A DNA stretch of 50,068 bases from Gammaproteobacteria bacterium (GTDB taxonomy: Bacteria > Pseudomonadota > Gammaproteobacteria > Nitrococcales > Nitrococcaceae), in NCBI GenBank assembly GCA_030433275.1, contig JAUILK010000025.1, forward strand, positions 1-50,068. Reading direction: 5' to 3'. Of the stretch, positions 26,852 through 38,824 are shown in pieces. The translations under genes were made by a program, and so were the position numbers. A model generated the notes under the pieces. It was given only the letters and a program-made list of their open reading frames with translations, was not told the DNA's origin and searched no databases. Every line of letters begins with the position of its first letter. Position 1 is the stretch's first letter.

Positions 26852-28072
26852 TCAGCTGCCATGGGAATCCACCAGCGCGTCTGGTTGCTCAAGTATCGCT
26901 CGCAGATCGGCAAAAGCCTGGCAGATGATGTCGATCTGGGCAGGGGTATGGGCCGCGCTGACGCTGCAACGAACCAACGTATAGCCACCGGGTGCAGCCG
27001 GCGGTAGCACCAGATTGACGTAGATGCCACGCTCGAGGAGGCCCTGCCAGAATGCCACGGCCTGCTGTCGGGATCCGAGCAAGGTAGCCACCACCGGACT
27101 CGGCTCGGGACCGAGTCGGTAGCCTAGTGCCTGCAGCTGGCGATAGAGTTGGGTGGCGTTGGCCCATAGGCGCTCACGCAGCTGTGGACGACTACGCAGT
27201 AACTGTAACGCGGCGCGCGTGGATGCAATAACGGAAGGTGACGGTGATGCCGTGAAGATGTACGGTCGGCTGGCGTAGCGTAAGAATTCGGATTCGGGGT
27301 GATTACTGGCGAGAAATCCGCCTACGGCCCCTAAGCTTTTGCTAAATGTGCCAAGTATGAAGTCGACCTCGGTGGCCACGCCGGCTTCCTCTGACAGCCC
27401 GCGGCCATGCTCGCCAAGGACTCCCAGTGAATGGGCCTCATCGACCACCAAATAACCACCGTAGCGACGTTTGACCGCGACAATTTCGGCCAATGGTGCC
27501 CGGTCACCGAGCATGCTATAGATCCCTTCGACCACGATGAGTGTGTTATCAGCATGTTTTTTTAGTCGTTGCAGGCGCTTTTCGAGATCGGCAACGTCAT
27601 TGTGTCGAAACCGTATGATTTGAGCGCCGCTGAGTCGGCAGGCATCGTAGATGCTGGCATGGCAATCCGCATCGAGCAGTATGATGTCTTGCGCTCCAGC
27701 CAATGTGCCGATCAGGCCCAAGCTGGCGAGATAGCCGGTAGAGAAAACAATCACCGAATTACTTTGATAAAAGTCTCCGAGTTCGGCTTCCAAAGCACAG
27801 TGGCCGCCGTAGCTGCCGTTGGCCATCCGCGAGCCGGTGGTCCCCGTGCCTTCCCGCTCAACGGCTTTTTGGGCCGCCTCGATGCATTCGGGCGCGAAGG
27901 TCAGGCCGAGATAATTATTGGTGCCGGCGAGCAGTACCCGTCGTCCGCCGATGCGTGCCTCTGTGGGTGAATAGACCTCCTCAATCCGGGTCTCAAAAGG
28001 GCTGAGACCGGTGGGAAAGAGCTCTGCGCGTTCGCTGGCGAGTTTATTGAACTTATCGAACAATGCCATCAT
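26852..28072 (-). CDS. spt: Serine palmitoyltransferase (alpha-oxoamine synthase family)
   Basis: This 406-residue PLP enzyme would condense serine with a fatty acyl thioester to 3-ketosphinganine, the entry step of sphingolipid synthesis. It carries DADCHAS with the PLP-stacking H139, VVDEAHSLGVLG (D211, H214) and the Schiff-base lysine K245 in TFSKSLGAVGG. Family members include BioF, Kbl and HemA. SPT is preferred because of the overlapping acyl carrier protein gene (ATGA overlap), the acyl-AMP ligase and epimerase upstream, the EGTGTTGSRMANGSYGGH segment, and the absence of bio genes. Specificity needs biochemistry, but the context is strong. Confidence 0.85.
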   Translation of the reverse strand: MMALFDKFNKLASERAELFPTGLSPFETRIEEVYSPTEARIGGRRVLLAGTNNYLGLTFAPECIEAAQKAVEREGTGTTGSRMANGSYGGHCALEAELGDFYQSNSVIVFSTGYLASLGLIGTLAGAQDIILLDADCHASIYDACRLSGAQIIRFRHNDVADLEKRLQRLKKHADNTLIVVEGIYSMLGDRAPLAEIVAVKRRYGGYLVVDEAHSLGVLGEHGRGLSEEAGVATEVDFILGTFSKSLGAVGGFLASNHPESEFLRYASRPYIFTASPSPSVIASTRAALQLLRSRPQLRERLWANATQLYRQLQALGYRLGPEPSPVVATLLGSRQQAVAFWQGLLERGIYVNLVLPPAAPGGYTLVRCSVSAAHTPAQIDIICQAFADLRAILEQPDALVDSHGS

Positions 28073-28317
28073 TCCGCCTCCAGCAACCGAATGATTGTGC
28101 AGGCGAGATCCTTGGGCGTGCGAATATCGGCGAGAAGGTTCAGCGGCACGGATATATCGAAATCCTCTTCGACTTCCAGCAACAGATCCATGACGTTGAC
28201 GGAGTCCAAGCCGAACTCGCTGATCAGGTCTGTGTCTTCGTCCAAGGTTGTGCCTTGCGGCGCCATGGGGCGCAGGTGGGTGTAGAGTCGGTCTAGAATT
28301 TGTTGATACTCTGCCAT
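28069..28317 (-). CDS. Acyl carrier protein dedicated to the sphingolipid pathway
   Basis: This 82-residue acidic four-helix protein has the phosphopantetheine attachment site FGLDSVNVMDL (S39). It is translationally coupled to the serine palmitoyltransferase (4-bp overlap) and lies downstream of a fatty acyl-AMP ligase and an epimerase. It therefore probably carries the acyl chain used by SPT, as reported for the specialised ACP beside spt in Caulobacter. It is distinct from a housekeeping AcpP, which would sit with fab genes. Confidence 0.88.
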   Translation of the reverse strand: MAEYQQILDRLYTHLRPMAPQGTTLDEDTDLISEFGLDSVNVMDLLLEVEEDFDISVPLNLLADIRTPKDLACTIIRLLEAE

Positions 28318-28369: not shown

Positions 28370-29290
28370 TCATCCGTTCAACCCTTTCCGCATGGCGTAT
28401 TCCAGATCGATGCTGGGTCGCCAGTCGAGCGCCGCTGCGAGCGCGCCATTGTCGCATATCCAATCGGGATGCCGAAGTTCCCTTAATTTTCCCGGTGTAA
28501 GCATCGGTTGATAGCCGAGCCAGCGTGCGAGGTGGAGATTGACCGCAGCGGCCAAGTTCAGGCCGGTAGGCGGCAGGTGCAGCAACCGCACCGGGCGGCC
28601 TTGGACCCGAGCCGCGATCGCAGCGATGGTCTGCCAGCTGTAGCCGCCGGTCCGCCCATCATGGAGCTCGAACGTTCCTGTTGCGGGAAAGGAGGAATCG
28701 AGCCAACGCAGTACCGCGGTGATTAGATCGTGGACGTGCAGCAGGGTCAGCCGTGCCTGTTGGTTGCCTGGTACGGGCAGCCAACCGAGGCGTAGGAGTC
28801 GGAAAAGGGGGCTAAGTTCTCGATCACCAGGTCCGTAAACGGCTGTGGGGCGGAAGATGGTGAGAGCAAGCGCACCGCTTTGCTGCTGCAAGACCTCCTC
28901 AGCATGGCGTTTGGAGGTGGCGTACCAGGATAAAGTCGGCTCACGGGCGGCCAGCGATGATATGAAAAGGAAGCGAGCGCAGTGCGATTCAGCCTGGGCC
29001 GTCCGTAGCAAGCGCTCGGAGCCATGGACATTGATCCGCTCGAAGGCTTCGAGGGACCGACCACGGACCGCGCCTGCGCAGTGGATGACGGCATCGGCGT
29101 TGGCCATAAGCTGATGCAGCGCCGCAACATCATTGAGATCACCACGAATCCATTCGATTTTACCCGCCAGCGTATCGCCGCGGTTTTGCCGTACTAGCGC
29201 GCGAACCCTCCAGCCGGCTTGGGCGAGTGGTTGGCACAGGGCGCCGCCGATGAAACCCGTCGCGCCGGTTAGCGCTACTATGCCTGCCAT
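28370..29290 (-). CDS. NAD-dependent epimerase/dehydratase, candidate ceramide reductase (CerR-like)
   Basis: This 306-residue extended short-chain dehydrogenase has the NAD(P) motif TGATGFIGGAL (residues 8-18) and the catalytic YATSK pair (about residues 121-125), with FRPTAVYGPGD as in the epimerase family. In Caulobacter a gene of this family (cerR) reduces the 3-oxo group of the sphingoid backbone, after N-acylation according to published work. It lies between the acyl-AMP ligase (7-bp gap) and the ACP gene. The reductase role is inferred from family and context. Confidence 0.72.
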   Translation of the reverse strand: MAGIVALTGATGFIGGALCQPLAQAGWRVRALVRQNRGDTLAGKIEWIRGDLNDVAALHQLMANADAVIHCAGAVRGRSLEAFERINVHGSERLLRTAQAESHCARFLFISSLAAREPTLSWYATSKRHAEEVLQQQSGALALTIFRPTAVYGPGDRELSPLFRLLRLGWLPVPGNQQARLTLLHVHDLITAVLRWLDSSFPATGTFELHDGRTGGYSWQTIAAIAARVQGRPVRLLHLPPTGLNLAAAVNLHLARWLGYQPMLTPGKLRELRHPDWICDNGALAAALDWRPSIDLEYAMRKGLNG

Positions 29291-29297
29291 CGAATCT

Positions 29298-31067
29298 TCA
29301 GCTGGAGGCGGCGGCCCTGGGTGCCTCCGCGATGATCTCGCTGTGTTGATTCCAGCCGACTCTTTGAATAAATCGGCGTCTCGCCTCCGAGCGCGAGAGT
29401 TTACCGGAGGAAGTTCTCGGCAGCGTCTTGGGTGGAACTAACTCGATGCGGCATTTTATGCCGAATTCGCTGTAGGTCATTCGCTGCAGCCGGCTTATCA
29501 GGTCGGTGCGGCGCTCGTTTTCAGTCAGGCGACACTGGACCAGCATGACCACGACCTCGCCGCCCTGGGGGTGAGATGTGACGAAGGCGGTAACGTCGCC
29601 GACCCGCACTTCCGGCTGCTCTTCGGCGAGGCGCTCCATATCTTGGGGCCAGATATTGCGCCCATTGACAATGATCAGATCCTTGCAGCGTCCCGTTATG
29701 AACAGTCCGGCTTCGGTTAAATAGCCCAGATCGCCGGTGTCGAGCCAACCGTCCGGCCCCAGAGCATCGCGGGTGCTGGCCGCATCCTGGAAATAACCGG
29801 ACATCAGACTCGGTCCTCTGACACTGACAATGCCGACATGGCGATGGGGCAGCGCTTGGTAGTCGGCGCTGCGAACGACCACCTCGTGTCCGGGCAACGG
29901 CTGACCACAGTTGACGAACGCCCTAACGCGCTCGCCATGCCCGTTCGTTGCCGCGGTCGCAGTCATATGGTCTTCCAAGTCTCGGCGATCGACGTGATCT
30001 ACGGACATGCCTTGATCGAGCGCCGCGAATGTGACGGCCAGTGAGCTCTCTGCTAGCCCGTAACAGGGTAGGAAGGCGTGGCGGTTAAAGCCGGCCGGCG
30101 CCATGAAATCAGCAAAGCGCTCCAATGTCTCGGCATGAATCGTCTCGGCGCCAACGCCGGCTACGCGCCAAGAGCTAAGATCATAGCGATCGATCTCGGC
30201 GCGATGGACACGGCGGGCGCAGATGTCGTAGCCGAACGGGGGTGCAAAGGCGATCGTGCCACGGTTGTTGCTGATCAATGCCAGCCATTGTCGTGGGCGC
30301 ATGGCAAAGTCGCGGGTACCGAGGTAATCGACGGAGAGTTGCGAGGCCAACGGACCTAGGACGAACCCGACCAACCCCATGTCGTGGTAAAAAGGCAACC
30401 ATGAGACGCAGCGATCACCGGAGCGTACGGCAAGTCCTGAGCCTACGATACCAGCCAGGTTTGCCATGACTGCTTGTTGAGTAATGACTACCCCGCGTGG
30501 GAAACGCGTGCTTCCAGACGTATATTGTAAATAGGCGATCTCATCCGGTCCGCTGGGCTCGAGTTCCACCGCCGGTTCATCAAGCGCATAAAGATCCGCC
30601 GGGCTGCCTATGAAGCGCAGCTCAAGGCCGTCAGCGGCTTCTTGCAGGAACGATAGGAATTCTGCGGGCGCCATGGCGGCCGTGGCGCAGCAACTATGGA
30701 GCAGGCGGCGCAGGCGTTCGATATAGCTTCCCCGGCTGCCGAGGTTGATTGTGATGGGCAGGGGAACCGGGACGAATCCACCGTATTGGCAGGCATAGAA
30801 AAATTCCATGAACTCCGGACAAGTCTCGGCGATCAATGCGACCCGTTCACCCCGTTTCAAGCCGAGTCCGTGGAGACGCTTGGCCGTGGTCCGCGCGCGT
30901 TGCCGAAGTTCGGCGTACGGCAGCGCCGCTCGTAACCGCCCGCGACCGTCGTAGAAATTATACCCAGTGACGCCTTGCGCAGCATAATCCAACGCTTGCG
31001 CGAGCGTTGGAAAATCCGCGCAGCGCAGAGGGCGATTATTGATTGTTGGCGTGGCCGTTCTAATCAA
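29298..31067 (-). CDS. Fatty acyl-AMP ligase (FAAL-type)
   Basis: This 589-residue adenylating enzyme has the AMP-binding core YLQYTSGSTRFPRG, the FAAL-like stretch SWLPFYHDMGLVGFVLGPL, and the C-terminal hinge DTGDLGYL...GRCKDLIIVNGRNIWPQD with lysine in PRTSSGKLSR. FAALs activate fatty acids as acyl-AMP and pass them to an ACP rather than to CoA, which fits the ACP two genes downstream. Translation probably starts at the TTG at 31067 with GGAAGG upstream; no ATG or GTG gives the normal N-terminus. It is the first gene of the minus-strand arm. Confidence 0.87.
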   Translation of the reverse strand: MIRTATPTINNRPLRCADFPTLAQALDYAAQGVTGYNFYDGRGRLRAALPYAELRQRARTTAKRLHGLGLKRGERVALIAETCPEFMEFFYACQYGGFVPVPLPITINLGSRGSYIERLRRLLHSCCATAAMAPAEFLSFLQEAADGLELRFIGSPADLYALDEPAVELEPSGPDEIAYLQYTSGSTRFPRGVVITQQAVMANLAGIVGSGLAVRSGDRCVSWLPFYHDMGLVGFVLGPLASQLSVDYLGTRDFAMRPRQWLALISNNRGTIAFAPPFGYDICARRVHRAEIDRYDLSSWRVAGVGAETIHAETLERFADFMAPAGFNRHAFLPCYGLAESSLAVTFAALDQGMSVDHVDRRDLEDHMTATAATNGHGERVRAFVNCGQPLPGHEVVVRSADYQALPHRHVGIVSVRGPSLMSGYFQDAASTRDALGPDGWLDTGDLGYLTEAGLFITGRCKDLIIVNGRNIWPQDMERLAEEQPEVRVGDVTAFVTSHPQGGEVVVMLVQCRLTENERRTDLISRLQRMTYSEFGIKCRIELVPPKTLPRTSSGKLSRSEARRRFIQRVGWNQHSEIIAEAPRAAASS

Positions 31068-31807
31068 TTCAGGTACCTTCCGCTTTCTTTGTCCCTAGCT
31101 CTCCGACCATTGCGGTCGCAGTGGCGGTTGGCCGCGGACCGACGCTTTCCGCCCGCCTCCGTGCAAGGCTCGTCAGAGAGAGCCCATGTGAGCCTATAAC
31201 GCGGCCGCTATAGGGTCCGCTAGTAAATTGCCCGCTGCGCAGGATAATCTTGCGAATCGGGTGCTGCACGCGGTAGAGGGTGCATCCAGTGCCCGGCGAA
31301 TGCCTCTGCCGCTGTTGTTGTTTGTGCGCTTCAATACCCGTATGGTGGTTATATTAGCGTTGGTATGCTGGCTCGAATCGTGACGAAATACACGGGTAAG
31401 CCATGACTTTTTCGATGACCGCGCCACCTGCCAGCATCCCACCTCCCATGCAAGGGCGGGGCACTTTCCGCTATCATGCTGCACCGTGCTTAGCCATTGC
31501 TTGTCTAGAGCCGAATGAGGATCTTCCATGGCGTCTTTAGTCAAAATGCAGTAAAGCTTCAGTCTGCTGAACTTGAGAATCTACGTTAAGTTCAGAGTCT
31601 ACATGAATATGAAACAACAGTCGTATAAAAACAAGCAAGATTTTCATAGCAAGCAAGATGCGTATAACAGAAGGTCAGGCATTGCACCCGCTTAAAAATT
31701 TGACCTCCACGCTTGGTGGTAGTTCGAAATAGTCATTAACCGCACTTTGCCTCAACCCGGTCTGCCTTTACGTCATTCGGGCTGGAGCGCCGGAGAGATC
31801 GCCACAT
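31068..31807. promoter_or_regulatory. Divergent control region of the sphingolipid locus
   Basis: About 740 bp separate the two divergent arms. The right part (31550-31760) is clearly richer in A+T than its surroundings. It contains AGCAAGAT twice within 40 bp and a 30-codon open frame at 31603-31695 (MNMKQQSYKN..., no convincing ribosome site). Just before the plus-strand arm lie GGAGAG and ATG. A minus-strand frame of 116 codons (31194-31544) has no domain or codon support. Promoters for both arms should be here; I cannot assign boxes with confidence. Confidence 0.45.
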
Positions 31808-32986
31808 ATGGAAAAACGCGCCGCAACGAATCGCCGTGGGCATTACGGTCGCCAGAATTTGCCGGTCGTTGTTCGGTCGTTGCTTGGACGTGGTGATTTT
31901 GCCACATTTTTGAGTTTGCCGCGACAATTTTACCACAGTGATCCGCATTGGATTGAACCGTTGCAGTTGGAGCGCCGCCAGCACCTATCGAAGCGCAACC
32001 CGGTGTTCGAGCATCTTGATTGGCAAGGATGGATTGCCTGGCGTGATGCCCGTCCGATAGGGCGGATTACGGCCCAGTTGGATCGGTTGCATCAGCAGTG
32101 TCATGGGGATCATACAGGCTATTTCGGGATGCTCGAGGCCATAGATGACGCCGCTGCGTTTGCGGCCTTGACAGCGACCGCGGAGGATTGGTTGCGCCAG
32201 CGCGGTGCCCGCCGGGTGCGTGGGCCGTTCAATTTATCCATAAACGACGAGTGCGGCCTCCTGGTGGAGGGGTTCGACTGTCCACCGATGTTCATGATGG
32301 GGCATACCCGGCCTTACTATGCTCATCGTTTAGAAGAACAAGGTTATAGCGTAGCCAAGGACCTTCTCGCCTACTGGATGCCGTCTGCCGAGTTATCCTT
32401 CACTCCGTCGATGCGCCGGCTGATGGCGCGTTATCAAACTCGGATCCGTGTGCGCCCTACCAGCCGGGAACGATTTGCGGCTGATATGGAGATATTGCGG
32501 GATATTTTCAATGATGCTTGGTCCGAGAACTGGGGATTCGTGCCTTTTACTGCGGCGGAGTTCCGCGAACTGGGGCGCAATCTGCGGCTATTCGTCGCCT
32601 ACGATCTCATCCAAATCGCTGAAATCGACGGTGTACCGGTGGCTTTTATCGTGGCGCTGCCCAACCTCAACGAGGTAATTCGCGATTTGGGCGGCCGTCT
32701 AATGCCTTTCGGTTGGATGAAATTGCTCTGGCGCTTGAAAGTGCGCTATCCGCTGACTGGCCGGATTCCGCTCATGGGGGTGGCTAAACGCTATCAGTTC
32801 AGTCGGCTCGGGCCGACGTTGGCGCTTACGCTGATTGCCGCTATTCAGGGGCCGGTGATGAAAAAGGGTATTCGAGCGGTTGAGATGTCGTGGATTCTCG
32901 AGGATAACGCGGGCATGCGCAATATACTGGAGAATATCGGTGCCGAGCCTTACAAACGTTATCGTCTCTACCAGAAGGCGCTTTAG
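31808..32986 (+). CDS. GNAT-fold N-acyltransferase, candidate bacterial ceramide synthase (bCerS)
   Basis: This 392-residue soluble protein has a C-terminal GNAT-like core (about residues 225-390: IRDLGGRLMPFGWMKLLWRLK, EMSWILEDNAGMRNILENIGA, YKRYRLYQKAL). Its N-terminal half carries VRGPFNLSINDECGLLVEGFD. Proteins of this family are often misannotated as dATP pyrophosphohydrolase or plain N-acetyltransferase; one is the ceramide synthase of Caulobacter (CC_1154), unrelated to eukaryotic CerS. It heads the plus-strand arm, divergent from the FAAL-CerR-ACP-SPT arm. N-acylation of 3-ketosphinganine is the proposed role, strong by context and moderate by sequence. Confidence 0.72.
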   Translation: MEKRAATNRRGHYGRQNLPVVVRSLLGRGDFATFLSLPRQFYHSDPHWIEPLQLERRQHLSKRNPVFEHLDWQGWIAWRDARPIGRITAQLDRLHQQCHGDHTGYFGMLEAIDDAAAFAALTATAEDWLRQRGARRVRGPFNLSINDECGLLVEGFDCPPMFMMGHTRPYYAHRLEEQGYSVAKDLLAYWMPSAELSFTPSMRRLMARYQTRIRVRPTSRERFAADMEILRDIFNDAWSENWGFVPFTAAEFRELGRNLRLFVAYDLIQIAEIDGVPVAFIVALPNLNEVIRDLGGRLMPFGWMKLLWRLKVRYPLTGRIPLMGVAKRYQFSRLGPTLALTLIAAIQGPVMKKGIRAVEMSWILEDNAGMRNILENIGAEPYKRYRLYQKAL

Positions 32987-33010
32987 GGCGATCGACTCGG
33001 CTCTCCAGAG

Positions 33011-33874
33011 ATGAGTGCGCGTACTTTGAGCCAGTCTTGTGCCTTAACCGACTCGGCGACGCACCGAGTGGCGGCCATCGTATTGGCGGGCGACCGCAAG
33101 ACCCCGGATGCTGTAGCCGAGGAGGCCGGCACGCAGTGTAAGGCGCTTGCGCCGGTGGCCGGCGCGCCGATGCTGCAGCGGGTGTTGCAGGCGCTGTGGG
33201 ATAGCGCTTTGCTTGATCGAATTATTCTATGCGGGCCGGCGCAAGAGATCGTTGCGAGCTCGCCGGTGCTCCAAGAGCTGCTGTCTGCCTCGCGCATCGA
33301 CTGGGTCGCCTGTGCTGATTCGCCCAGTGCGAGCGCGCTCGATGCGTTCGCGGCTCTGCCGCCAGAGCGGATCACTTTGCTCACCACCGCGGACCACGCG
33401 TTGCTCAGTGCGCCGATGATTCGCTATTTTCTGCACCGGGCGCAGATCGGTAACTGGGACTTGGCGGTTGCGGTAGCCGAGCAACGGATCGTATCGGCCC
33501 GGTTTCCGGCCGCTCGGCGCACCGCTATCCGTTTGCGAGGAGGGCCGTATTGCGGCTGCAATCTGTATGCGTTCCTAACCCCCCATAGTCGGCAGTTGGC
33601 GGATTATTGGCGGAAGGTGGAGCAGGAGCGCAAGCGGCCCTGGCGAATCGTCGTACGATTGCTCGGTTGGCGGGCCGTGCTGGACTACGCTTTGGGTCGG
33701 CTCACTCTGGAGAAAGCCCTGCAGCAGCTCTCACGTCGCCTGGGAATACGGATAGGCGCCATTGTTTTACCCTATCCGGAGGCGGCAGTGGATGTCGATA
33801 CGCCGGCCGACCGGAAGCTTGCCGAGGCGGTGCTGATCGAGCGCGCTGAAGCGCAGGGGAATAATCGGCCGTAA
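33011..33874 (+). CDS. MobA-like NTP transferase of the sphingolipid locus
   Basis: The 287-residue protein has the nucleotidyltransferase start AAIVLAGDRKTPDAVAEE...CKALAPVAGAPMLQRVLQALWDS (about residues 21-65). A TTADHALLSAPMI segment (about 122-134) has the metal-binding aspartate, and VDVDTPAD lies near the C-terminus. The fold is that of MobA/GlmU-type enzymes that make NDP-sugars or CDP-alcohols. Set between a candidate ceramide synthase and lipid-transport genes, it may activate a headgroup or its precursor. The substrate is unknown. Confidence 0.7.
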   Translation: MSARTLSQSCALTDSATHRVAAIVLAGDRKTPDAVAEEAGTQCKALAPVAGAPMLQRVLQALWDSALLDRIILCGPAQEIVASSPVLQELLSASRIDWVACADSPSASALDAFAALPPERITLLTTADHALLSAPMIRYFLHRAQIGNWDLAVAVAEQRIVSARFPAARRTAIRLRGGPYCGCNLYAFLTPHSRQLADYWRKVEQERKRPWRIVVRLLGWRAVLDYALGRLTLEKALQQLSRRLGIRIGAIVLPYPEAAVDVDTPADRKLAEAVLIERAEAQGNNRP

Positions 33875-33996
33875 CGATGGCGACTGATTCGCTCGTGTGG
33901 GTATCGACTCAAGGCCGTTTTGTGCAAGGGGCTCGCCCCAGTAGGGCGTGTTCCCGCCGGATTGGGCCGACACCGTTGGGCGAAGGTGCATAATCC

Positions 33997-35076
33997 GTGT
34001 TGCTGATTGAACGTTACCTGATTGCGGAGGTGCGACGTCCGCTGATCGCTGTGGTCTGCGTCCTGAGCTTCATTTTTGCGAGCTACACGGCCGCGCACTA
34101 TCTCGCGGATGCGCTCAGCGAGACCCTCGGGATGCAGATGATTGCGCTGATGGTAGTGTTCCGGACCCTGATTGCGCTCGAGGTTCTCATTCCGGTAGCG
34201 CTTTATGCCTCGGTGGTAATTGGCCTGGGGCGCCTCTACAACGATCAGGAGATGACTGTCCTCGGCGCGGTCGGTATCAGTTCGGTCCGTGTTTACTGGG
34301 CGATTCTACTGCTCGCGCTGCCGGTTGCCCTCGTTGTCGGCGTGCTGTCGTTGCTCGGCCGACCTTGGGCCTACCAGCAAGCCTATCAGGCCGAAGCGCG
34401 TGCGCATGTGGAAATTCCCTTGGAGCGGTTGCGCGCCGAGCATTTCTATGTGGACTCGCAGACCGGGCGTATGATTCTCGCGCAAAAAGTGGACAACCAA
34501 CGCGGCTTACTGCACGGCGTGCTGATCTATCAGCATGCAGGGGGGGTGACGCACCTGATCAAGGCTCGACAAGCGCAGCAACTACCGCGGGGGCAGCGGT
34601 CTGGCGAAGCGCGGCTGATACTGCATAACGGGATTGCTTATTTGCTTGATCGAGCGGGGAGCCATGACCGGATTCTGCGTTTCGGTGAGCTTTCGCTGCG
34701 TTTGAGCCAGCCGCAACCAGTGGTGGGCTACAAACGCAAGGCCGCATCTACGGTTGCGCTTGCGCGCTCGGCTAGCCCCGCTGAACTCGCCGAACTGCAG
34801 TGGCGTCTCTCTCGCCCTCTGACGACCGTCTTGCTCGCGCTGTTCGGGGTACCGCTTAGCCGCACGGCGCCACGCCGCGGCCGGTTCTCCAAGGTCCTAC
34901 TGGCCGCGCTCGTCTATGCCTTGATATACAATGCCAGCGGTTTGGCGAAAACCTGGGTGGAGCATGGCGTGGTCGGAGCTGTACCCGGTATTTGGTGGAT
35001 CGATGCGGTCATGCTCGTCGCGCTTGTCGCCTTCATCAGTCATGACTCGCAATGGCGGCGACGGTCGCGGGCATGA
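33997..35076 (+). CDS. LptF/YjgP-family lipid-transport permease
   Basis: The 359-residue protein has the YjgP/YjgQ layout: a pair of N-terminal membrane helices, a periplasmic beta-jellyroll (about residues 130-250, HVEIPLERLRAEHFYVD), and C-terminal helices (PLTTVLLALFGVPLSRTAPRRGR). The GTG at 33997 gives LLIERYLIAEV, a normal LptF N-terminus. LptF pairs with LptG and the LptB ATPase to extract LPS from the inner membrane. Here both genes sit in a sphingolipid locus, not at the usual pepA-lptFG site. It may be the only copy or a paralogue for ceramide lipids; the window cannot tell. Confidence 0.85.
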   Translation: MLLIERYLIAEVRRPLIAVVCVLSFIFASYTAAHYLADALSETLGMQMIALMVVFRTLIALEVLIPVALYASVVIGLGRLYNDQEMTVLGAVGISSVRVYWAILLLALPVALVVGVLSLLGRPWAYQQAYQAEARAHVEIPLERLRAEHFYVDSQTGRMILAQKVDNQRGLLHGVLIYQHAGGVTHLIKARQAQQLPRGQRSGEARLILHNGIAYLLDRAGSHDRILRFGELSLRLSQPQPVVGYKRKAASTVALARSASPAELAELQWRLSRPLTTVLLALFGVPLSRTAPRRGRFSKVLLAALVYALIYNASGLAKTWVEHGVVGAVPGIWWIDAVMLVALVAFISHDSQWRRRSRA

Positions 35077-36155
35077 AGACGGCGGAACGTTATCTCATGC
35101 GTGCCGTGGTCGGTGGTTTCGTGGTGGCCGCAGCCGTGTTGCTACCGCTGTTTAGTTTCGTTGACTTGGTAGAACAGTTGGATGACACAGGGCAGGGCAG
35201 TTACCATATCGTCCAGGCGTTTGCCTACGTCGGTCTTACACTGCCACGGCGGCTGATCGAGCTTGGCCCCTTCATCGCACTGTTGGGCACCATCGTTGCA
35301 CTTGGAGGCTTGGCTAGCCATCTGGAACTGACTGCGCTTCGATCGGTCGGTGTTTCACCCGGGCGCATCGCGTTGGCCGCGCTCAAAGCCGGTATTTTGT
35401 TGATTCTGCTCTTGGCTGCGATCGATCAATTTGTCGCCTCGCCGTTACAACAGTACGCTTTCGGGATGCGCTCCGATGCGCTGAGTGGTGGCAGTAACGC
35501 TAGGCTTGAGAGCGGGGCTGCATTGTGGGCGCGGCACGGCGATCGTGTGCTACGCGTCGGTGCCCTCCGCCTGGGCCGCATTCCAGCGGATATCGAGATT
35601 TTTCATTTCAATCCCAAGGGGCATCTCATAAAGTATATTCACGCCGATCATGCCGAGATTCACCATCGCGCGCCATGGCAGCTCAATACAGTGCTGGTCA
35701 AGGCTTTCATAGCCGGTACACCGGTAACGACTCGGCGTATCAGCATGGCGTGGCAGACTTTTCTGACCCCTGCCCAGATCGGATTGCTTGAGAAACCGGC
35801 GAAGAGTCTCTCTCCGGTACAGCTCTATGGTTACGTGCATTATTTGCGCGCTACCGGCCAATCATCGGCTGTGTATGCCGTGATGCTTTGGCAGAAATTG
35901 GGCGTGCCTCTGACCGCCGCGGCAATGATTCTACTTGCGGTGCCTTTCAGCATTGGTGCGCCGCGTGGCACCAGTATTGGCAGCCGAATTGCGTTGGGGG
36001 CCATCGCGGGTTTGGGCGTGTACTTGGCCGATCAAATTATCGCCAATATGGGTTTGTTGCTCGATTTCAGCCCGCCGTTGATCGCGCTGGGACCAGGTGT
36101 CGTGTTACTTACGGTGGCGCTGGCGGTGCTTGGCAAGGTCGCCACCCGGCATTGA
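35073..36155 (+). CDS. LptG/YjgQ-family lipid-transport permease
   Basis: The 360-residue partner of the preceding permease. The ATG at 35073 overlaps the stop of the LptF-like gene as ATGA and gives the typical start MKTAERYLMRAVV; another in-frame ATG at 35052 is less likely. Three N-terminal helices with LEQLDD-like VDLVEQLDDTG, a periplasmic jellyroll (about residues 140-255) and C-terminal helices are all present. Translational coupling indicates a heteromeric pair with the LptF-like protein. An LptB ATPase would have to be supplied from elsewhere. Confidence 0.86.
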   Translation: MKTAERYLMRAVVGGFVVAAAVLLPLFSFVDLVEQLDDTGQGSYHIVQAFAYVGLTLPRRLIELGPFIALLGTIVALGGLASHLELTALRSVGVSPGRIALAALKAGILLILLLAAIDQFVASPLQQYAFGMRSDALSGGSNARLESGAALWARHGDRVLRVGALRLGRIPADIEIFHFNPKGHLIKYIHADHAEIHHRAPWQLNTVLVKAFIAGTPVTTRRISMAWQTFLTPAQIGLLEKPAKSLSPVQLYGYVHYLRATGQSSAVYAVMLWQKLGVPLTAAAMILLAVPFSIGAPRGTSIGSRIALGAIAGLGVYLADQIIANMGLLLDFSPPLIALGPGVVLLTVALAVLGKVATRH

Positions 36156-36228
36156 TCGGTCGATCCAGCAGCATCGGTGGCGGTGACGGGGGGCAATACA
36201 TTGCTTGGGGAGTGTTTGGCATAACGCA

Positions 36229-37230
36229 ATGAGGCTCAGTCAATCGAGTGAATCCGAAGTTTTGGCGCCCCGGCGGATTGGGGTGCTCTGCAATCCGAAC
36301 AGTGGGCGCAATCGGCGTTGCTTGCGGGAAGTTCGGGAAGAGGTGCGGCGGCTTCCTGGTGCTGTATATCGGGAAGCGGTCTGCCCAGCGGAAACGGCGT
36401 TCGGTATTCAAAAACTGCTTGCCAGTGGAGCGGAATTGCTGGCCATAAACGGCGGTGATGGGACGCTGCAGGCGGCACTGAGCTATCTGTTAGGACCGGG
36501 AAAGCGACGAGGGAAGCCGCCGCCGCTCATAGTGCTTGCAGGCGGCACGACCAACATGACAGCGGTCGACGTCGGTGCCCGGAAAGCGCCGCAGCATGCA
36601 TTGCGGGCGCTCGGTGCATGGCTTTCTGGAGCCTGCGCCGGGCCGCGGCGCACCGAACGCGCCGTGTTGCGAGTGGCGGCGTCAGATCGGCCGACACTCT
36701 ATGGTATGTTCTTCGGCGCCGGTGCGATCTACACGGGGGTGGAGTATTTTCATCGCCGTATCGCGGCTTGGCGTACCGGTGGCAAGATCGGTCCCGGGCT
36801 TGCATGCGCCCGGTTGTTGCTCGCATTGGCGCGACCCGCCCAGAGCCGAGTTCAGCCGGTACGGCTGAGGTTACGGCTGGATGATGGTGCCCTCCAAGTA
36901 GGAGACTATTTGTTGATCCTTGTCAGCGGTTTGGAGCGTCTCCTGCTGGGTTCGAAGCCCTATTGGGGCGTCGAGCCGGCGCCATTGCACTATACTGCGA
37001 TTCGGCATCGCCCTAGGCGCTTGTTACGTTCCCTGCCAGCCGTGCTCAGAGGCGGCGCTGACGCAGTGCTACGCGAGCAGGATGGCTATTTCAGTCATAA
37101 CATCAACACCTTGGCGCTTGAGTTCGACGGCGGGTTCGTGTTGGATGGGGAGCGTTACCAAGTCGATCGATCGCAAGGCCCGCTGCATTTGTCGCAGGGT
37201 GGGCGAGTAACATTTTTGTCATTCCAATAA
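36229..37230 (+). CDS. Diacylglycerol-kinase-fold lipid kinase, candidate ceramide kinase
   Basis: The 333-residue protein has the DAGK catalytic motifs NPNSG (22-26) and NGGDGTLQ (74-81), and a C-terminal beta-sandwich half with FFGAG. This LCB5/YegS-like family phosphorylates lipid hydroxyls. In Caulobacter a protein of this fold (CpgB) phosphorylates ceramide for ceramide phosphoglycerate synthesis. Given the neighbours, ceramide or a related long-chain base is the likely substrate. The ATG at 36229 is preferred over an upstream TTG at 36205. The gene ends 23 bp before the Tam41-like gene. Confidence 0.78.
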   Translation: MRLSQSSESEVLAPRRIGVLCNPNSGRNRRCLREVREEVRRLPGAVYREAVCPAETAFGIQKLLASGAELLAINGGDGTLQAALSYLLGPGKRRGKPPPLIVLAGGTTNMTAVDVGARKAPQHALRALGAWLSGACAGPRRTERAVLRVAASDRPTLYGMFFGAGAIYTGVEYFHRRIAAWRTGGKIGPGLACARLLLALARPAQSRVQPVRLRLRLDDGALQVGDYLLILVSGLERLLLGSKPYWGVEPAPLHYTAIRHRPRRLLRSLPAVLRGGADAVLREQDGYFSHNINTLALEFDGGFVLDGERYQVDRSQGPLHLSQGGRVTFLSFQ

Positions 37231-37253
37231 CCCAGCCGGTGGAGTGATCGCCG

Positions 37254-38237
37254 ATGCGATGCGCGCTCGTGCGGACCCGCCGCACAAACTCAGAGCCTCC
37301 TGCTGCTTTGATCGCCGTGGTGGCGGCACAGAGTGCCCGCTCGGTAGCTCCCGCGCTACACCGGCTTTGTGAGCGTATGATTGCTCGCTTCGGTGCGGCT
37401 GTAGCAGGCGTGATTTTTTATGGCTCGTGTCTGCGCAGTGGTGAACCTAGGGCCGGCGTGGTGGATTTATACGTTGTGGTCGATCGCTACGCGGCGGTGT
37501 ACGACAGCGCCCTGTTGTGCTGGCTCAATACTCTGTTGCCACCGAATGTCTTCTATCATGAATCAGCCGACGCTGATGGTGCGACCCTTCGCGCCAAATG
37601 TGCCGTTCTCTCCTTGCAGGATCTGGAGCTCGGTACGGCGCAGTGGTTTCATTCCTATCTGTGGGGACGCTTCGCCCAGCCCGTGCGTTTGGTCTATGTG
37701 CGCGATGAGCTGACCCGGGGGCGCATTGAGCGTGCCTTGGCCAGAGCCGTGGTAACGCTGCTCGAGCGCACGTTACCCTGCCTGCCCGAACGGTTTAACA
37801 GCGCCGAGTGTTGGCAGCGTGCCTTGGCATTGAGTTACGCAGCCGAGCTGCGACCGGAATCGCCGCAGCGCGCCGCCGACCTGGTGTACCATGACTTATC
37901 TGACTACCGCCGGCGCATAGCGGCGACGGTAGCCGGTCTGCCGGGCATGGCGGCGGTTAATGAGGGCGATTGGTACATCAATCGAATGTCCTCGGGGCAA
38001 GGGTATTTCTCGTCGAACTGGAGTTGGTCCGTACGACGGGGGCAGGGGCGCATTTTGACCGTGCTGCGATTGATGAAGTCGGCGTTCACCTTCGAGAATG
38101 GAGTCGATTATATCGCCTGGAAGCTTGAACGGCATACAGGGGTGGCGTTGGAGCTTACAGATTACCAGCGCCGCTATCCGCTGTTATTCGGTTGGCGCGT
38201 TTTGTGGCGATTGTTGCGGCAGGGTTCATTGCGCTAA
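37254..38237 (+). CDS. Tam41-like (Mmp37 family) CTP:phospholipid cytidylyltransferase
   Basis: The 327-residue protein aligns by eye with mitochondrial Tam41, which converts phosphatidate and CTP to CDP-diacylglycerol. Matching blocks in order are FYGSCL with D71 (nucleotidyltransferase GS...D), KCAVLSLQDLE (115-125; Tam41 KYGVxSxxxLL), YLWGRFAQPVRL (135-146; Tam41 YLAGRLQKPVKI), ALSYAAELR (Tam41 ALSYAGDIR) and a C-terminal RILTVLRLMKSAFTF helix. Following a DAGK-fold kinase in a ceramide locus, it may activate ceramide-1-phosphate as CDP-ceramide, or another phospholipid. Family assignment is good; the substrate is inferred. Its end overlaps the convergent TIGR02444 gene by 4 bp. Confidence 0.78.
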   Translation: MRCALVRTRRTNSEPPAALIAVVAAQSARSVAPALHRLCERMIARFGAAVAGVIFYGSCLRSGEPRAGVVDLYVVVDRYAAVYDSALLCWLNTLLPPNVFYHESADADGATLRAKCAVLSLQDLELGTAQWFHSYLWGRFAQPVRLVYVRDELTRGRIERALARAVVTLLERTLPCLPERFNSAECWQRALALSYAAELRPESPQRAADLVYHDLSDYRRRIAATVAGLPGMAAVNEGDWYINRMSSGQGYFSSNWSWSVRRGQGRILTVLRLMKSAFTFENGVDYIAWKLERHTGVALELTDYQRRYPLLFGWRVLWRLLRQGSLR

Positions 38238-38824
38238 CCAGCCCGCCAGACCGCCTCGGTTTCGCGCGCAAGTCCGGCGGGCGCTACTCTCGGAAACGTT
38301 GTTTGCAAGATGTGCCCCAGCGCCTCCAGGGCCTGCGGCTCTGGCTGTGGGCAACTTTTTCGGGTAAGCAGGGCGGCATTGGTGGCGGCGTCACGCCAGC
38401 GCTCCACTGTTGGAGCGGCTGGGCGGCCGGGCGGAAAATCTTCCAAGAATAGCCGTTGCTCGATCCGCTCTGCCTCCAGTTCCTGCTCCAGTAGCCGGTG
38501 CCGCAGCCGTTCCGTGCGGCGCTCGAGGCCTTGTGGTGGCTGTTGTCGCAGGCGACGGCGCAGCGCGCGGAGTGGTTCGATGATCTCTCGATGCCATTCC
38601 ATACCGCGGCGGATTGCAGTCTCGAGTTCTGTAGCACCGAGCCGGCCGTAACCGTTGGCACCTGCCCAGATGCTGCCCAGCAGAAGACTGATGCTTAGTC
38701 CATAACGGGCCTGGATACTGAGACAGGCCTGCTTCACCGTCTCGACTTCGTAGAGCGTGAGTGCAAACTCCCAAAGGCGTTGAGCCTCGCCATCGATATC
38801 GCTGTGCTCGGTATCGACCGACAT
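38234..38824 (-). CDS. TIGR02444/DUF2390 family protein
   Basis: The 196-residue protein is soluble, without a signal peptide. The N-terminal half (LWEFALTLYEVETVKQACLSIQARYGLSISLLLGS...WHREIIEPLRALRRRL) matches TIGR02444/DUF2390, a gammaproteobacterial family without assigned function. The arginine- and glutamate-rich middle is predicted helical. It lies 12 bp downstream of pntB and is probably read from the pnt promoter. Confidence 0.8.
   Translation of the reverse strand: MSVDTEHSDIDGEAQRLWEFALTLYEVETVKQACLSIQARYGLSISLLLGSIWAGANGYGRLGATELETAIRRGMEWHREIIEPLRALRRRLRQQPPQGLERRTERLRHRLLEQELEAERIEQRLFLEDFPPGRPAAPTVERWRDAATNAALLTRKSCPQPEPQALEALGHILQTTFPRVAPAGLARETEAVWRAG

Follow-up and report, generated by a model that had tools for sequence, protein, structure and literature searches.

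A 2024 paper on Caulobacter crescentus put forward the hypothesis that the proteins LptC2, LptF2, and LptG2 (CC_1168, CC_1156, and CC_1155, respectively) take phosphosphingolipids to the outer membrane (PMC11324152). How bacterial sphingolipids get to that membrane was called unknown in the same year (PMC11324152, PMC11087976). The canonical system is LptB2FG, the exporter of lipopolysaccharide (LPS), represented by E. coli lptFG and by the structures PDB 6mhu, 6s8h, and 9dok. Here we analyze a permease gene pair of the LptF and LptG families, designated lptF2 and lptG2, located at 33997-36155 of a 50,068-nucleotide stretch from a gammaproteobacterium of the Nitrococcaceae (contig JAUILK010000025.1, assembly GCA_030433275.1). 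The whole stretch, referred to as the window, corresponds to contig C75 in a draft genome of 3.41 Mb.

Like Caulobacter LptF2G2, the window pair is a second LptFG that lies beside cerS and phosphosphingolipid genes, and its cluster resembles the Caulobacter ceramide/phosphosphingolipid cluster of PMC11324152. Unlike Caulobacter, for which a separate LptC2 (CC_1168) was proposed, the present genome has a single LptC. Moreover, the cer-linked pairs of alphaproteobacteria-like genomes constitute one clade (clade B), whereas the window pair belongs to another (clade A); it should be noted that the trees contain no Caulobacter row. With canonical LptB2FG, the window pair shares the family models, the fold, and the coupling glutamate and loop-2 arginine residues. 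It differs in that clade-A pairs form a separate clade, are located in a sphingolipid operon instead of next to pepA, and feature P14, R121, Y125, Y/F129, and K247 in LptF. In our opinion, these sequence comparisons make it fairly likely that LptF2G2 is a paralogous pair that would move a (phospho)ceramide lipid via a shared ATPase and bridge. Compared with the 2024 proposal, the new elements are the distinct clade, the sole survival of its members upon loss of lipid A genes, a second case in a second clade, and a set of candidate specificity residues.

LptFG pairs of the genome

A preliminary description of the window had reported an LptF/LptG pair embedded in a sphingolipid cluster. Both permeases are indeed full-length family matches above the curated cut-offs (PF03739, TIGR04407, TIGR04408), and spt, a cerS-like gene, and a lipid kinase gene are among their neighbors. 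The kinase flank had been described correctly; the single "ceramide synthase/nucleoside triphosphate (NTP) transferase" placed on the other flank is in fact two genes (31808-32986 and 33011-33874).

Four PF03739 matches were found in the genome, corresponding to two pairs, that of the window and one on contig C34. The second pair, anticipated as worth searching for, adjoins pepA, the gene for an M17 aminopeptidase. The two pairs share 35% identity between LptF1 and LptF2 and 29% between LptG1 and LptG2. A second lptB, searched for on the same suggestion, was not recovered: one LptB exceeds the cut-off of 240 (382 bits), and the runner-up of 49 matches scores 163 bits. Thus, no private LptB for the window pair was found above the cut-off, with the limit that the 48 weaker ABC matches could hide a distant replacement. 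A private LptC is rejected by the single PF06835 match in the genome. LptA and LptD were found once each, and both LpxC and LpxB are encoded. Because LptB, LptC, LptA, and LptD were each found once, the route downstream of the permease would be shared with LPS export. Of the two possibilities raised initially, an exporter dedicated to ceramide lipids or a sphingolipid sharing the LPS route, a mixture is favored, namely, a dedicated permease operating with shared LptB, LptC, LptA, and LptD.

Phylogeny and linkage

The cerS loci compared here are those of the best 80 of at least 576 relatives. An LptFG gene piece is present in 45 of the 80, and one lies within 6 kb in 37 of the 61 loci that have at least 5 kb of sequence downstream. 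Forty of the 80 loci were followed to whole genomes; they are a non-random set, picked by eye so as to favor named isolates, long contigs, and variety (genomes and loci are denoted by G and L numbers below). When these 40 genomes were searched for PF03739, the cerS locus contained a pair in 25, and 17 had a single pair overall.

The phylogenetic comparison with canonical LptF and LptG, suggested initially, places the window pair in a separate, strongly supported clade. Clade A has a support of 100 in a quick tree of 74 pairs with an E. coli outgroup (Shimodaira-Hasegawa-like approximate likelihood ratio test, SH-aLRT, only), 100/99 in a mixture-model tree of 51 of the 65 available rows, and 99 in a quick tree of 85 pairs that includes 20 more pairs from a phylum sample. 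Pairs for which both LptF and LptG had not been recovered at a length of at least 250 amino acids were excluded from the trees (e.g., L121, L123, L124, L125, L126, L107, L108, and L112). A quick tree of cerS itself was set aside because its deep forks were weak. In the 74-pair tree, clade A comprises all 41 cerS-locus pairs, including that of the window, together with eight other pairs. Moreover, in each of the 18 genomes that contribute two pairs to this tree, one falls inside clade A and the other outside it.

Gene context follows the same division. Nine clade-A pairs lie outside the fetched cerS loci (one of them, L121, was assigned to the clade solely from its BLAST score); eight of these have another sphingolipid gene in their flanks, and pepA is absent from the flanks of all nine. 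Conversely, among 54 loci with an LptFG outside clade A, a pepA match was found in the flanks of 44, in agreement with the initial statement that lptFG usually lies beside pepA, and none of the seven sphingolipid genes tried was found in any; the 54 include a few cases in which a single pair is divided between contigs, and several loci that stop at a contig edge. It had been reasoned that the sphingolipid link would probably be coincidental if the window pair were the only lptFG of the genome and grouped with canonical copies. The former is rejected by the second pair on C34 and the latter by clade A in three trees; because a second pair exists and the window pair lies outside the canonical group, the argument for coincidence fails on both counts.

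Three pairs outside clade A are nonetheless nearest to it in the 74-pair tree: L109 (G010), L119 (G018), and L135 (G038). Their flanks have no pepA match, and L119 and L135 are long branches. These pairs may represent a stage preceding the divergence of clade A. In a different direction, cerS and clade-A lptFG occur together in the metagenome-assembled genome (MAG) records L034, L046, L051, and L087, labeled Nitrospirae, Nitrospirales, Desulfobacterales, and Deltaproteobacteria; the cluster seems to extend past Pseudomonadota. The sphingolipid clusters of L024 and L025 (Salinicola and Halomonas) contain no lptFG in the fetched stretch of about 20 kb, and the genomes have a canonical pair only.

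Genomes without lipid A synthesis genes

Nine of the 40 genomes, all Nitrosomonadaceae from Nitrosomonas, Nitrosospira, or Nitrosovibrio records, have a single LptFG pair, and this pair is located in the cerS locus (G023, G025, G026, G029, G030, G032, G033, G035, and G040; two of the nine, L052 and L056, are MAGs). The markers of lipid A synthesis searched for were lpxC and lpxB. LpxC was found in 32 of 41 genomes and is absent from precisely those nine; LpxB was found in 29 of 41 and is missing from the same nine and from G016, G034, and G037. These nine ammonia oxidizers retain LptB, LptA, LptC, and LptD, the LptD search having covered 13 of the 41 genomes. Of nine lipid A genes, Nitrosomonas europaea was reported to possess lpxK only (PMC3087551), and Sphingomonas is cited as an LPS-less bacterium with sphingolipids (PMC11324152). 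Both have lost lipid A synthesis and possess sphingolipid genes, as do the nitrosomonads analyzed here. In this family, to judge from gene content, the Lpt system seems to have persisted after lipid A synthesis was lost, the surviving permease being the sphingolipid-linked pair.

The open-access literature (subscription papers and most preprints lie outside this scope) contains the LptF2/LptG2 proposal of PMC11324152, and no work was found there that links the proposal to lipid A loss. Specifically, the portions of PMC11324152 and PMC3087551 at hand do not tie lipid A loss to which LptFG pair survives.

That the window pair is an ordinary redundant copy of the LPS exporter, placed in the cluster by chance, is scarcely credible in the light of these results. 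The NCBIfam equivalog models do name both proteins LPS export permeases, but the pair belongs to a distinct clade, its linkage is recurrent, and its relatives are the sole survivors in genomes without LpxC and LpxB. If LptF2G2 is a sphingolipid permease, automatic equivalog annotation as an "LPS export permease" can misstate the cargo.

A second sphingolipid-linked lineage

A sample of the phylum was drawn by a tool and comprises 249 genomes, the present one included. A cerS match was found in 21 of the 249. LpxC is missing in 21 of the 249 (20 of these are named; the 21st is taken to be G281, which is missing from the listed rows), namely, in 13 of the 21 genomes with cerS and in 8 of the 228 without it (Fisher p 2e-11). 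At a completeness of at least 90% and a contamination of at most 5%, the contrast is 13 of 21 versus 1 of 179 (p 3e-14). Related genomes are not independent, and these p-values are therefore descriptive only. Five genomes of the sample have four PF03739 matches (G000, G079, G107, G135, and G154). Among LpxC-positive genomes, four matches were found in four of the eight with cerS (three of seven if the present genome is set aside) versus 1 of 220 without it (p 3e-6, present genome included). G107 is the sole cerS-negative genome of the sample with four LptF/LptG matches. Separately, the 1.5-Mb genome G067 has no LpxC or cerS match and has two LptF/LptG matches.

In 11 of the 13 genomes with cerS and without LpxC, an LptFG pair lies within the fetched stretch of about 20 kb around cerS. 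One of the 11, G142, belongs to clade A, beside Nitrosomonas marina. The remaining ten come from families f33 and f37, which are not part of the window's class; we take both families to be alphaproteobacteria, f37 probably being sphingomonads. These ten pairs, together with the cerS-linked pair of G135, make up clade B; G135 also encodes LpxC and a further pair, which is linked to pepA. Clade B has a support of 100/100 in the mixture-model tree (8 of the 11 rows) and of 100 in the 85-pair quick tree (11 of 11 rows), and it lies beside further pairs from genomes that are not of the window's class, not beside clade A. A single origin of the alpha-like and the beta/gamma cer-linked pairs is rejected by the approximately unbiased (AU) test for A and B as one clade (p 0.00013; the groups were named after the first quick tree was seen). 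Gene order differs as well: LptFG precedes cerS and the NTP-transferase gene in the clade-B loci L154 and L149, and follows them in the window and in most clade-A loci. It has been suggested that gammaproteobacteria obtained the whole cluster from alphaproteobacteria (PMC11324152). Such a transfer misfits the LptFG sampled here, because clades A and B are separate and the gene order is different.

Group-specific residues

Residue numbers follow E. coli unless assigned to the window, and clade-A tallies are over 53 LptF and 51 LptG rows. LptF E84 and LptG E88, which we take to be the glutamates that couple to LptB, are present in 53 of 53 and 51 of 51 rows, respectively. LptF R292 (53/53) and LptG R301 (50/51), both with roles in LptB coupling (PMC6744409), are similarly conserved. 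The window equivalents are E85 and R293 in LptF2 and E92 and R305 in LptG2. Because the coupling residues are conserved in clade A, coupling to LptB should be intact.

Lateral-gate residues and residues that contact lipid A were also compared, as had been suggested. In Shigella LptB2FG, LptG K34, K40, and R133 contact the phosphates and K41 the inner core (PMC6744409); the corresponding window residues are D, D, F, and D. Several contacts have thus changed in the window; others are still basic, and the canonical copies are themselves mixed at most of these positions.

Other positions distinguish the clades more sharply. LptF P14 is present in 53 of 53 clade-A rows, 11 of 11 clade-B rows, and 3 of 50 others (L109, L119, and L135), and R121 is found in all 53 clade-A rows, in none of the 11 of clade B, and in none of the 50 others. 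Further near-invariant LptF residues of clade A are Y125 (52/53), Y or F at position 129 (53/53), and K247 (52/53). In window numbering, P14, R121, Y125, and Y129 are LptF2 P15, R122, Y126, and Y130. A model of LptF2 (predicted local distance difference test score, pLDDT, 84.2) features six transmembrane (TM) helices and a periplasmic beta-jellyroll, and its top Foldseek matches are the LptF chains of LptB2FG structures. In this model R121, Y125, and Y129 follow one another at intervals of one helical turn along the helix formed by window residues 96-137; position 129 of LptF aligns with R133 of LptG. We propose that the R121-Y125-Y/F129 face on LptF TM3 of the model may read the phosphoceramide head group.

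Cargo of the clade-A pair

A number of observations weigh against a permease dedicated to sphingolipid. Positions that contact phosphate are still basic in the window (R66 and R140 at LptG K62 and R136; K at LptF K317). Neither the lateral-gate nor the lipid A contact residues discriminate between cargoes, and the remaining basic contacts would suit any phosphate-bearing lipid. G016, G019, and G037 have LpxC, yet only a clade-A pair was found in them. Conversely, the canonical pair is the only one in the cerS genomes G005, G006, G008, G015, and G017 (of the 40), G081, and G141, where sphingolipids would share the LPS route or reach the outer membrane differently, if at all. In the phylum sample, G143 (cerS-positive, LpxC-negative) has a single pair away from cerS, and the cerS genomes G227 and G231 have one pair each, away from cerS and of untyped clade. 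Finally, G179 (L160; 5.4 Mb in one contig) has cerS, no LpxC match, and no LptFG match; because of this genome, it must be accepted that a cerS genome can do without LptFG and that sphingolipids need not use it. Matches to spt, cerR, and aasR are also present in G179.

Some of these observations would suit LptF2G2 acting as a broad-range permease for LPS and sphingolipid, or for anionic lipids generally, its linkage to cerS reflecting joint regulation. The single LptB, LptC, LptA, and LptD, which imply a shared route after the permease, the basic phosphate-contact positions, and the finding that P. aeruginosa LptB2FGC binds cardiolipin as well (PMC12738788) are consistent with this possibility. 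It is nevertheless unlikely in our estimation: every one of the 18 two-pair genomes keeps its separate pair outside clade A, and G016, G019, and G037 have no LptC match (nor does G011, which has both pairs). In these three, the assemblies may be incomplete, or the clade-A LptFG may carry LPS there.

A homologue of the KdsC-like haloacid dehalogenase (HAD) hydrolase is encoded upstream of lptC in four of the nine lipid-A-less regions (L138, L140, L142, and L144, all Nitrosospira and Nitrosovibrio records); none was found in the fetched stretch of the other five, which are from Nitrosomonas. Such a gene would be compatible with a Kdo-containing surface polymer, and it could be argued that the pair exports some other lipid or polymer that LPS-less bacteria kept, such as a phospholipid or a different surface glycolipid, the cerS linkage being secondary. 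A (phospho)ceramide cargo is, after all, what we infer. We consider an alternative cargo quite improbable, given that the sphingolipid linkage recurs in beta-, gamma-, and delta-like and in Nitrospirota records, and in alpha-like genomes with pairs of a different clade.

Proposed mechanism and implications

If LptF2G2 is a sphingolipid permease, the surrounding genes would make its (phospho)ceramide cargo, and LptF2 and LptG2 would join the LptB of the cell in an LptB2F2G2 complex. The lipid would enter from the periplasmic leaflet of the inner membrane via the lateral gates and be passed directly to the shared LptC-LptA-LptD bridge, which would deliver it to the outer leaflet. In Caulobacter, the mutant of CC_1156 (lptF2) has a cofitness of 0.60 with that of CC_1159 (PMC11324152).

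A broader generalization has, in our judgment, about an even chance of being correct. According to it, sphingolipid export via Lpt would have arisen at least twice by duplication of LptFG alone; in lineages that lost lipid A, the whole bridge would have become a sphingolipid conveyor. LPS-less bacteria would retain "LPS transport" genes because the cargo changed, and LptFG would set the cargo. The specificity of clade A may be located in the R121-Y125-Y/F129 face of LptF, whose positions correspond to the LptG stretch with the phosphate contact R133 at its end. If LptF2G2 is the permease, Lpt is modular, such that the permease pair picks the lipid and one ATPase and one bridge serve both cargoes, and the lipid-A-less ammonia oxidizers are a natural system with a non-LPS Lpt cargo.

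Genes of the locus

The features of the locus are listed in Table 1. The six plus-strand genes between 31808 and 38237 are separated by intergenic gaps of -25 to 122 bases. The start of lptG2 is likelier at 35073, to judge from the sequence, where an ATGA would overlap the lptF2 stop. Gene names in the cluster rest on family and position, the Caulobacter sequences themselves having been outside the comparison. Scans of 31000-38500 for promoters and terminators revealed no excess relative to shuffled sequences.

Table 1. Features of the sphingolipid cluster and its permease pair in the window
Feature	Coordinates	Strand	Evidence
spt, serine palmitoyltransferase	26852-28072	-	NF047599 equivalog, 627.5 bits (cut-off 500)
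82-amino-acid acyl carrier protein, acpR-like by position	28069-28317	-	open reading frame; PF00550, 40.3 bits
short-chain dehydrogenase/reductase (SDR) oxidoreductase, cerR-like	28370-29290	-	PF01370, 97.1 bits
fatty acyl-AMP ligase, aasR-like	29298-31067	-	NF006624, 828.5 bits (cut-off 600)
cerS-like, putative bacterial ceramide synthase	31808-32986	+	cluster make-up likened to PMC11324152; no family model
NTP-transferase-like	33011-33874	+	PF12804, 47.7 bits; presumably CC_1153-like, from position and family
lptF2, LptF-family permease, clade A	33997-35076	+	TIGR04407, 292.4 bits (cut-off 230); PF03739, 192.9 bits; trees; fold model
lptG2, LptG-family permease	35052-36155 (start likelier 35073)	+	TIGR04408, 302.8 bits (cut-off 240); PF03739, 206 bits; nearest solved chains by sequence are LptG
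diacylglycerol kinase (DAGK)-type lipid kinase, probable ceramide kinase	36205-37230	+	PF00781, 41.7 bits; presumably CC_1160-like, from position and family
Tam41/CDP-diacylglycerol (DAG)-synthase-like	37254-38237	+	PF09139, 31.8 bits; presumably CC_1161-like

With a 395-amino-acid open reading frame of L021, presumed to be CC_1159-like, as the query, a CDP-alcohol phosphotransferase (PF01066) was matched in 10 of 15 stretches; no match was found in the window or in L018, the search having covered these stretches. From the identity of its cerS-like protein to that of Nitrococcus mobilis, the source of the window is taken to be a Nitrococcus. Nitrococcus is a nitrite oxidizer, and its phosphosphingolipid may be simpler, unless a CDP-alcohol phosphotransferase gene sits elsewhere in the genome. 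The cerS-like protein has no Pfam or NCBIfam match and is 90% identical to its counterpart in Nitrococcus mobilis Nb-231.

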